Positions 7,070 through 9,112 of a stretch of 38,366 nt of DNA are shown here, piece after piece. A program made the position numbers and the translations under genes. Origin of the DNA: Alphaproteobacteria bacterium (GTDB lineage: Bacteria; Pseudomonadota; Alphaproteobacteria; Sphingomonadales; Kordiimonadaceae); contig JAJFIT010000116.1 of assembly GCA_021774775.1 (NCBI GenBank), forward strand, positions 1-38,366, written 5' to 3'. Within the stretch, counting starts at the first letter, position 1. The number at the start of each line of letters is the position of its first letter. Below the pieces are notes generated by a model. It saw nothing but the letters and a program-made list of their open reading frames with translations, ran no database searches and was not told where the DNA came from.

Positions 7070-7864
7070 TTATCCCGCTTGACGGTCCGCCAAAATTTCC
7101 GCCGCCAATTTTTTAGACCGGAAGTTATCCACGTCAATCGGCGCTTCGGGAAACGGCATCCTGACAGCAATAACCGATGTCCTGAATTTCTTCGACATAC
7201 GCTCCATGCCCCGGTCCAGGCTATAAATAGCGAAGCGGTAGGCAATGGCATTCCACAGACCAAAGGCTTTCAACACCCGGTAAAGTGACTTGGCAAACTG
7301 GCCACCAGTTTGGAATACGCTCACCAGATCAACGGTTTCCCTGTCCATGATCGCATAGAGATTGCAGTTGGAATATTCATCGTCCGCAAACTTGTGAAAC
7401 CGTCGCTGGCCGTCCGGATAAACGTCCAGCAACACCTTTTTCTCGGTCATGGCGAGTGCCGACCGGGCGTCGGCTTTGTAAATTTCGCTGCAAAAATGAG
7501 CGATCATCGGCGGCGACAACAAAACATTGTCTGCCGTTGTCACGAGCGCAGGCAGCAATTCATCCCCCTCAACGGCAAGCACAAAGCTGGAATATAAATC
7601 GGTTCTGGCGAGAACCACCCGCGCCTTGCCCGCAGCCTTCATGCGCTCATAGGCGGGCACGCCGTCCAGAACATCCAATTGATCGATGGAAATGGTTACT
7701 TGTTCAATTTCCGGGCTTTGGTCAAGGCAATCCAGCACATGCTCGACCAGCTTTTTACCAGCCATCTCAATGAGACATTTATGAGAAACGCCAGCGTCCG
7801 CTGCCAATTCATTGATAACACCGGGCCGCTGCGCTGCCATTACAACCGCATGGAATTTTTTCAA
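7070..7864 (-). CDS. MobA-like nucleotidyltransferase, uncharacterised
   Basis: A protein of about 264 residues with a nucleotidyltransferase (GT-A/MobA-like) fold. The N terminus reads FHAVVMAAQRPG, then GVSHKCLIEMAGKKLVEHVLDCL with the conserved Lys, and later ALVTTADNVLLSPPMI, the Asp-containing metal site of this family. The usual LAGGxSxRxG loop is replaced by AAQRPGVINELAADAG, so it is not a molybdenum-cofactor enzyme proper. The open frame begins at TTG 7870, but GAGGA lies only two bases from it; the next TTG at 7862-7864 has an eight-base gap and is the likelier start. It lies 19 bases behind the ATP-grasp gene and is probably cotranscribed. Product unknown. Confidence 0.8.
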   Translation of the reverse strand: MKKFHAVVMAAQRPGVINELAADAGVSHKCLIEMAGKKLVEHVLDCLDQSPEIEQVTISIDQLDVLDGVPAYERMKAAGKARVVLARTDLYSSFVLAVEGDELLPALVTTADNVLLSPPMIAHFCSEIYKADARSALAMTEKKVLLDVYPDGQRRFHKFADDEYSNCNLYAIMDRETVDLVSVFQTGGQFAKSLYRVLKAFGLWNAIAYRFAIYSLDRGMERMSKKFRTSVIAVRMPFPEAPIDVDNFRSKKLAAEILADRQAG

Positions 7865-7889
7865 CTGCAAATCCTCTATGTAAGGTCGC

Positions 7890-8903
7890 TTATATGAGAT
7901 CAGCTGGGCTGATAAGGCCTTGGCGCAGCATACTATGACAGACGATAGTTTCGATCAATTCCTGGTAATCAACCCCGGCACCGCGCGCGGAAAATGGCAC
8001 AGCCTTTTTCGACCAGAGATTACAGCTAAGATTAACTTCAAGGAAATTTAGCGAATCGGTGCTGGCATCATATTTAAACTCCATGCGCGCATAGTCGCAG
8101 GGCCATATTTCGGGCAGAATATTTTCTGCATGCCGGTGCAGCCGGTCAATGATCGACTGTTCGTTGTATATCTCAAGAACAACATCGTCGCTTGGTGTCA
8201 AATGCCGCTTTTGTTCGTAGGAACGAATGGCCAGCGGATCGTCGACCACGAAACGCACAACCGGCAATATCCACAGGTCTTTTCCGCCAATTATCGGCAC
8301 CGCCAATTCGTATCCATCAACAAAATCCTCCACAATTGCATCATGACCAAGCGAGTGCAGATAGTCGATATGATCTTTGGCATCGGCCCAGGTTTCAACG
8401 GATTTAATCCCCCAGGATGCAGAACTTGCATTCGGCTTAACCACCAACCTGTCGGTTTTGAAGTCGGGTGCGTTGATTGCATGGCAACCGCGGCGGTATA
8501 TTTCCCAGTCTGGCGTTGAAAGCCCGCGGTTTTTCGCCGCCAGCTTCATCAGGTGTTTGTCATCACCCAACCCGCGCAATATGGGGCTGGCCCCCAGATA
8601 GGGTATGTTATTGTAGGATGATATAAGCGGCGCAAGCATTTCGCTGTTGACGAAACCACCACGATTATAAAGTGTGAAAAGAAAATCATAATCCTGGGTT
8701 TCAAAAAGTCGCTCATAGCGGCTGCAAGCCTCTATATTGAAACCAATCGCCCGCAACGTTTCGCGTAACTCATAATGATAGGTCGCGTGGCTTCCGTCTT
8801 CCTGGTCTGGCGTTCCGTCACCTTCGGCCCATTTTGCCAGAAATAGAATTTTTAGTCTTTCCTTGGCCTCATCCTTCAGGCGCAAACACTGTTCGTGTGG
8901 CAT
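7890..8903 (-). CDS. ATP-grasp ligase, D-Ala-D-Ala ligase-like
   Basis: A 337-residue ATP-grasp enzyme. An N-terminal domain starts at KILFLAKWAEGDG. The segment YNNIPYLGASPILRGLGDDKHLMKLAAKNRGL (about 94-125) matches the region before the ATP-binding core in D-alanine ligases (yLGas...DKh..K). DRLVVKPNASSASWGIKSV carries the nucleotide-binding lysine, IVEDFVDGYELAVPII the lid/phosphate region, and ARMEFKYD...LNFLEVNLSCNL the metal-binding Glu and Asn. Such enzymes join a carboxylate to an amine or hydroxyl via an acyl phosphate. It is not ddl itself: no mur/fts context, and the sequence is divergent. GAGG stands five bases before ATG 8903. Confidence 0.85.
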   Translation of the reverse strand: MPHEQCLRLKDEAKERLKILFLAKWAEGDGTPDQEDGSHATYHYELRETLRAIGFNIEACSRYERLFETQDYDFLFTLYNRGGFVNSEMLAPLISSYNNIPYLGASPILRGLGDDKHLMKLAAKNRGLSTPDWEIYRRGCHAINAPDFKTDRLVVKPNASSASWGIKSVETWADAKDHIDYLHSLGHDAIVEDFVDGYELAVPIIGGKDLWILPVVRFVVDDPLAIRSYEQKRHLTPSDDVVLEIYNEQSIIDRLHRHAENILPEIWPCDYARMEFKYDASTDSLNFLEVNLSCNLWSKKAVPFSARGAGVDYQELIETIVCHSMLRQGLISPADLI

Positions 8904-8944: not shown

Positions 8945-9112
8945 TGAAACAATCGTTAGCGCCCTCCACACGCGCTGCTCGAACTCCCCTTTAAGTCATC
9001 CCGTCTACATCGTTTTGGGGGCCATGCCAAATAGTTTTGAATGGTAACAAACACGTACACCCACTTGTCACGCACCAAGACCCCGGCTAGACTTAAAAAA
9101 AAAGGAAAAAAA

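Follow-up and report, generated by a model that had tools for sequence, protein, structure and literature searches.

Phosphosphingolipid synthesis in Caulobacter crescentus provides the closest described systems for the nucleotidyltransferase considered here. Its product ceramide diphosphoglycerate is reported to be able to replace LPS in the outer membrane (PMC13228409). CC_1153 is described as a nucleotidyltransferase that is genetically required for this lipid, with mutants still making CPG and CPG2 being absent (PMC11324152). CpgD (CCNA_01210, COG1213) is described as a CTP:phosphoglycerate cytidylyltransferase (PMC12275187, PMC13228409), with CDP-glycerate as its product (PMC12275187). 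Bacterial sphingolipid head-group enzymes with measured activity are few. For the second enzyme of our pair the reference is the D-alanine–D-alanine ligase DdlB of E. coli, in which we take S150, Y216 and S281 to be the residues that hold D-alanine.

The DNA analysed (the window, 38,366 nt) comes from a Kordiimonadaceae genome that is 83.6% complete (G000). On its minus strand it carries an ATP-grasp ligase gene with a predicted Ddl fold (7890..8903, 337 aa, ATG start) followed by a type A nucleotidyltransferase (NTase) gene (7070..7870, 266 aa, TTG start). The two reading frames, with the 19-nt gap from ligase to NTase, fill positions 7070-8903 exactly, and this order and spacing are kept in orthologues. 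Compared with locus L053, dN and dS were 0.066 and 1.10 for the NTase and 0.051 and 2.13 for the ligase, dS being mostly saturated against more distant loci. Rather than being chance ORFs, both genes are real, intact, linked and under strong purifying selection.

A promoter-like element (TTGGCA-N17-TAGACG, 9002..9030) lies on the same strand some 100 nt before the start of the ligase gene. Its core columns are invariant in eight Kordiimonad loci, in the spacer between the ligase gene and its divergently oriented neighbour (alignment 62% identical on average). It was not among the predictions of the consensus promoter scan. We infer both its function as the ligase promoter and its direction, and the same spacer also precedes the divergent prolyl aminopeptidase gene upstream of the ligase. 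Because of the 19-nt gap and the conserved element, transcription as one operon, with the ligase as gene 1 and the NTase as gene 2, is supported, as the first-pass annotation had thought probable. Its further statement that no known pathway genes lie around the pair was wrong, since an Mla operon encoding MlaE, MlaF, MlaD and an ABC_trans_aux lipoprotein (6936-3267, minus strand) follows 133 nt downstream of the NTase. A conserved promoter before mlaE was considered and rejected, the spacer alignment there being just 48% identical. No RNA element was found in the gene pair; the sole Rfam match of the whole window is a bacterial small SRP RNA gene (RF00169, 28749-28846, minus strand).

The NTase scored above the Pfam cut-offs for NTP_transf_3 (27.6 bits, cut-off 27) and CTP_transf_3 (25.5 bits, cut-off 22.6), and its AlphaFold model has a pLDDT of 94.7. 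With structure matches of Z up to 23.5 and its catalytic residues kept, it belongs to the nucleotidyltransferase superfamily. The nearest solved structure is TTHA0179 of Thermus thermophilus (PDB 2dpw; Z 23.5, rmsd 2.7 over 230 residues; sequence profile E 8.7e-16, 19% identity), deposited as a hypothetical transferase. CpgD and CofC are absent among the structure matches listed, which excludes neither. R15, K31, D114, D246 and D248 are invariant in all 44 type A and all 13 type B rows; by analogy with relatives, R15, K31 and the acidic residues would have catalytic or metal-ligand roles. Identity with MobA was rejected: the two MobA models score 12.3 and 12.4 bits, where the cut-offs are 164 and 151.85.

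Two subfamilies of this NTase could be told apart. In a tree of 62 NTases, from which proteins shorter than 230 aa and identical copies were omitted, 44 including that of the window form a clade, type A, with support of 100/99. NTases linked to a bacterial ceramide synthase (bCerS) homologue fall outside this clade, with their branching partly unresolved. The type A alignment and the type B alignment (13 rows, 12 of them bCerS-linked) match over 266 columns (hhalign 100%, E 1.8e-76). Type A carries N115, G190 and Q191 in 44/44 rows, the latter two within a GGQF motif, and type B has H115 (10/13), E190 (11/13) and R193 with K194 (13/13). The window NTase lacks the type B signature and, because of its type A signature and separate clade, is filed as a sister subfamily and not as CC_1153 itself. 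Type B is in turn putatively equated with the CC_1153 family by synteny, because its gene order CpgD-NTase-bCerS corresponds to CC_1152-CC_1153-CC_1154.

The window NTase thus resembles CC_1153 in that type B NTases are its full-length homologues and in that its genome, too, contains ceramide pathway homologues. It differs in its active-site residues (N115 and GGQF, as against the H115, E190 and RK that are usual in type B), in lying outside the sphingolipid locus with an ATP-grasp ligase as partner, and in that no CpgD-grade homologue was found in its genome. CpgD shares the nucleotidyltransferase class, acts in the same pathway as CC_1153 and offers a plausible model of the reaction. In contrast to this likeness, the profile match of the window NTase to CpgD-like proteins is weak (82% probability, 125 columns), the R-to-K spacing is 16 (R15, K31) where CpgD has 10 (R16, K26), and TTADN stands in place of the N110-G111-D112 motif of the CpgD-like rows (R14-K24). 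Orthology with CpgD was rejected on the weak profile match and the different motif spacing. The window genome also encodes a second NTase of the family, a divergent paralogue outside type A in the tree (L070:8532-11216, contig C217), adjoined by PAP2 phosphatase and glycerophosphodiesterase (GDPD) genes.

We then considered the genomic company of the NTase family in a class-wide sample of 289 genomes that includes the window genome. The family occurs in at least 33 genomes, from 21 taxonomic families by hand count, and a bCerS homologue in 40 (weakest accepted match 8.8e-65). All 33 NTase carriers hold a bCerS homologue, and among the 249 bCerS-negative genomes no NTase was found in a search that scored at most the best eight candidates per genome, so that a miss is possible (Fisher p 7e-37, kinship ignored). 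Within the class sample the NTase family is restricted to genomes that have a ceramide synthase homologue. In 24 of the 33 the two genes lie side by side, by hand count from coordinates. Eighteen NTase loci from this sample (L092-L109) were inspected: in 13 (L097-L109) the NTase is beside bCerS, and the NTases of L092-L096 are of type A and have no bCerS next to them.

The bCerS protein matches GNAT weakly (21.3 bits, cut-off 20.7) and is identified by synteny from its position and the Caulobacter cluster (PMC11324152). L100, L101 and L104 have a CpgD-like gene directly on the other side of the NTase, and in L103 such a gene lies at a distance of 0.9 kb. Residues of these CpgD-like proteins match those reported for CpgD (PMC13228409), namely R, K and N110-G111-D112 and, at an offset of 5, S170 and W201. 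A CpgD-like enzyme of 50-53% identity was present in all six other type B genomes tested, the query's own aside. Near bCerS there are also genes that on our own reading we label LptF- and LptG-like, a DAGK-type kinase gene and, in L102 and L105, serine palmitoyltransferase (Spt). A gene labelled tam41-like on its presumed fold gave no Pfam match and fits the CDP-DAG-synthase-like CC_1161 by position only.

The window genome carries such a set on contig C145, with Spt, a DAGK-type kinase, LptF/LptG-like genes, a MatE-like gene (match below the Pfam cut-off), a fatty-acid desaturase and bCerS. The C145 Spt scored 626.7 bits against NF047603 (below the cut-off of 670) and 599.1 against NF047599 (above the cut-off of 500), and with Spt and bCerS the host has ceramide pathway homologues. 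The core sphingolipid gene set was present in all eight Kordiimonad loci fetched, that of the window genome included. None of the eight contains an NTase, the window genome's locus ending at the contig end just past bCerS, and the window NTase itself is adjoined by the ligase and mlaE.

In an order-level sample of 59 genomes (the window genome and 58 others) bCerS is nearly universal (58/59), so co-occurrence cannot discriminate at this level; bCerS occurs without the NTase in 8 of the 59 and in 7 of the 40 class genomes. The Spt family model at E 1e-60 also matches control genomes such as E. coli and B. subtilis and passes its cut-off in none of the 14 genomes, and Spt was therefore judged by bit scores. 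One genome with ligase and NTase (G354) had just a 243-bit match of BioF size and no Spt was found there, and a further ligase-bearing genome (G348) had only an Spt fragment; the other 9 of the 11 named-locus genomes and all seven further ligase genomes tested gave a clear match (at least 466 bits). A CpgD-grade homologue was absent from all 13 Kordiimonads, eight having no match and five weak ones (best E 6.3e-14), and because of this absence the Kordiimonad head-group route probably differs from that of Caulobacter. The link of the operon to lipids is well supported by gene context.

The ligase matches Pfam Dala_Dala_lig_C with 59.6 bits (cut-off 24), so that for both genes the enzyme class proposed by the first-pass annotation was upheld by Pfam matches above cut-off. 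Its AlphaFold model (pLDDT 90.0) finds DdlB as best solved structure (Z 30.0, rmsd 2.4 over 296 residues). The ATP and Mg ligands K116, K156, E192, R273, E289 and N291 are invariant in 27 ligase rows and position 275 is acidic, which together with the fold places the protein in the ATP-grasp superfamily. While fold and ATP-grasp residues are shared with DdlB, identity is about 20% and the D-Ala pocket residues are replaced: mapped by motif via Pseudomonas DdlB, S150 corresponds to an invariant A162, Y216 to an invariant R233 and S281 to K/R300 (27/27 rows). The ligase has therefore kept the ATP-grasp machinery and replaced the D-Ala site. R233 and K/R300 add two positive charges, which suggests, on residue identity, an anionic substrate. 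A canonical Ddl was rejected, as Ddl models reach at most 80.6 bits (cut-offs 243 or more for the two best models) and TIGR01205 gives 75.0-75.3 bits against 245.65. With MobA models at no more than 12.4 bits as well, all far below cut-off, the divergence from both MobA and Ddl noted earlier from the sequence was confirmed.

Clear ligase orthologues were present in 20 of the 59 order-level genomes (E <=6.9e-77), seven more having much weaker matches, and the NTase family in 51 (E 0.001). The ligase gene lies within 1.7 kb of an NTase gene in 20/20 and within 300 bp in 19/20. Since some ORFs called in high-GC loci are spurious, partner genes were found again by search. Of 18 named loci recovered by ligase search, 15 hold the NTase in the same locus; in L066, L067 and L069 there is none beside the ligase in the locus DNA and the NTase is elsewhere in the genome. 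The first-pass annotation had made joint function depend on the two genes co-occurring and on neither belonging to a known unrelated pathway. The expected co-occurrence holds from the side of the ligase, but the NTase is more widespread (51/59 versus 20/59), and its family proved to be tied to a known pathway, phosphosphingolipid synthesis as reported in PMC11324152. The best-supported description is that the ligase is a dedicated partner of the NTase, and the NTase a sphingolipid-pathway-associated nucleotidyltransferase.

In the class search, ligase-like proteins of G343 (two copies), G100 and G276 scored far below the window ligase. Those of G343 and G100 have an N-terminal motif unlike that of the orthologues and no NTase, and are therefore treated as other subfamilies. 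A distinct Ddl-like ATP-grasp subfamily was seen at L090:3521-6664 (two copies) and L091:3838-5187; neither an NTase of the window family nor a bCerS homologue was found in the genomes of these two loci.

The slot flanked by the Mla operon and the aminopeptidase gene is occupied by alternative cassettes in most Kordiimonad loci. Some have ligase and NTase as in the window, others MmgE/PrpD and NTase (for example L081-L083, L085 and L086), L071-L073 have both, and further variants exist. Cultured strains with the operon include Kordiimonas aquimaris JCM 16665 (L057) and Eilatimonas milleporae DSM 25217 (L061), the second of which carries a PrpD cassette too (L125). An MmgE/PrpD gene (∼465 aa) was found near a type A NTase in L071-L074, L076, L077, L081-L086, L089 and L092-L094, and in the Kordiimonad loci these MmgE/PrpD-NTase genes occupy the same genomic slot as ligase-NTase. 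HAD phosphatase with a divergent NTase is seen at L076:7305-8838 and L084:7125-9889, and the L084 pair adjoins a CDP-glycerol glycerophosphotransferase-like gene (21.5 bits, Pfam cut-off 22.1). In L064 (Erythrobacteraceae), L067 (Sphingomonadaceae), L069 (Erythrobacter) and L079 an RNase E gene, and not mla, lies beside the module. The link to mla is therefore not general, and mla as the defining partner was rejected.

The type A clade divides largely by partner, needing 12 label changes where shuffled labels average 31.8 and none of 200 shuffles was as low; labels denote the nearest gene, which for one NTase each in L072 and L073, adjoining both partners, is the nearer of the two. The PrpD-partnered and ligase-partnered genes form largely, not perfectly, separate clades, the ligase label needing six changes on the NTase tree and the PrpD label three. 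One ligase-adjacent NTase (L068_2479) lies outside type A.

Because NTase relatives adjoin sphingolipid genes in many other bacteria, we propose that the ligase and NTase form a cassette for sphingolipid (phosphoceramide) head groups, a reading to which we assign a probability of roughly 0.45. The NTase would react an NTP, CTP being the likeliest, with a phosphorylated, phosphoglycerate-type carboxylic acid, so activating the acid and releasing pyrophosphate; the acid could be free or already attached to ceramide phosphate. With ATP, the ligase would convert a carboxylate, on the head group or on a precursor of it, to an acyl phosphate, to which an amine would then be joined to give an amide. 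Ceramide phosphate would receive the activated unit from a membrane phosphotransferase, and export of the lipid could run through LptF2/G2-type and perhaps Mla systems. We propose that a phospho-acid is activated and a head-group carboxylate amidated because of the enzyme classes and the known phosphoglycerate chemistry of the pathway; the nucleotide, the substrates, the order of steps and the amide product we only infer. A nucleotide-activated amide, as suggested from the sequence earlier, is one possible product of the pair. Literature searches on ATP-grasp or D-alanine ligases with nucleotidyltransferases, sphingolipids or MlaE found no ligase-NTase pairing in print, and a search on Kordiimonas lipids yielded nothing informative. 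As a small system, the operon could serve, in strains that are in culture, as a test case for the action of CC_1153-type enzymes and for the amidation of bacterial sphingolipid heads.

Alternatively, the pair might modify another envelope lipid or glycan, such as a glycerophospholipid, lipid A or core, or capsule, and share only ancestry with the sphingolipid NTase. We regard this as unlikely, though it is the foremost of the alternatives. The substrate of type A need not be part of a sphingolipid, as its active site (N115, GGQF) is unlike that of type B, and the position of the slot directly beside mlaEFD in most Kordiimonad loci fits such a role, as does the cassette relative in L084 with its glycerophosphotransferase-like neighbour. 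This is countered by the four loci with RNase E in place of mla and by the ceramide synthase homologue in every NTase carrier of the class sample. The same confinement weighs against the free small peptide-like metabolite of the first-pass annotation, a soluble nucleotide-activated dipeptide-like compound unrelated to lipids. The enzyme classes would allow that product, and no membrane-protein gene recurs beside the pair across all settings; yet the recurring neighbours (mla, aminopeptidase, ferrochelatase and others, annotated in part) look like a conserved chromosomal stretch and not a metabolite cluster. A lipid head group is the likelier product, and such a metabolite is on the whole rather improbable.

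A slightly smaller chance attaches to the ATP-grasp protein being a kinase, which would phosphorylate a small acid or amino acid from which the NTase then makes an NDP-compound. In Campylobacter O-methyl phosphoramidate synthesis a glutamine kinase is followed by its cytidylyltransferase. The cytidylyltransferase Cj1416 is mentioned in PMC12275187. NTases require a phosphorylated substrate, and the strict pairing with the NTase in the order sample would suit a kinase. By fold (Z 30.0) and closest relatives, however, the protein belongs with the Ddl peptide and depsipeptide ligases and not with kinase-type ATP-grasp enzymes, and the alternative partner MmgE/PrpD is no kinase family. That the ligase is a spare or relocated D-alanine–D-alanine ligase, as its Ddl fold and best family match might be read, is very improbable. 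Its D-Ala site is replaced, and another, better-scoring Ddl homologue was found in 12/12 genomes tested, including the ligase-free G010 and G012, although this homologue passed the TIGR01205 cut-off in just one of the 12. In the window genome the other Ddl pieces, on contigs C244 and C86, scored 111.9 and 102.4 bits versus 75.0-75.3 for the window ligase. A relocated housekeeping Ddl was rejected on this count.

Returning to the sphingolipid head-group cassette, a more far-reaching version can be put forward tentatively. Kordiimonads and sphingomonads may possess interchangeable cassettes of two genes, in which a type A NTase is combined with varying partners (the Ddl-like ligase, MmgE/PrpD and, less often, other proteins). 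Such cassettes would diversify sphingolipid head groups, with the ligase making amide-bearing, for example aminoacylated, phosphoceramides. If this were true, the ligase would be, as far as literature searches tell, the first amide ligase of the ATP-grasp type in sphingolipid synthesis. The alternative cassettes between mla and the aminopeptidase gene are in any case natural variants from which substrates might be guessed.

Two further gene arrangements were seen around the NTase. Directly after the type A NTase of L092 (10733-11593) and L095 (9657-10505) lies a P-loop protein gene that by eye is sulfotransferase-like, the L092 protein having no Pfam match. In L064 (6788-7990) a gene for a sugar-transfer associated ATP-grasp protein (ATPgrasp_ST) stands between NTase and ligase, placing three enzymes in a row.
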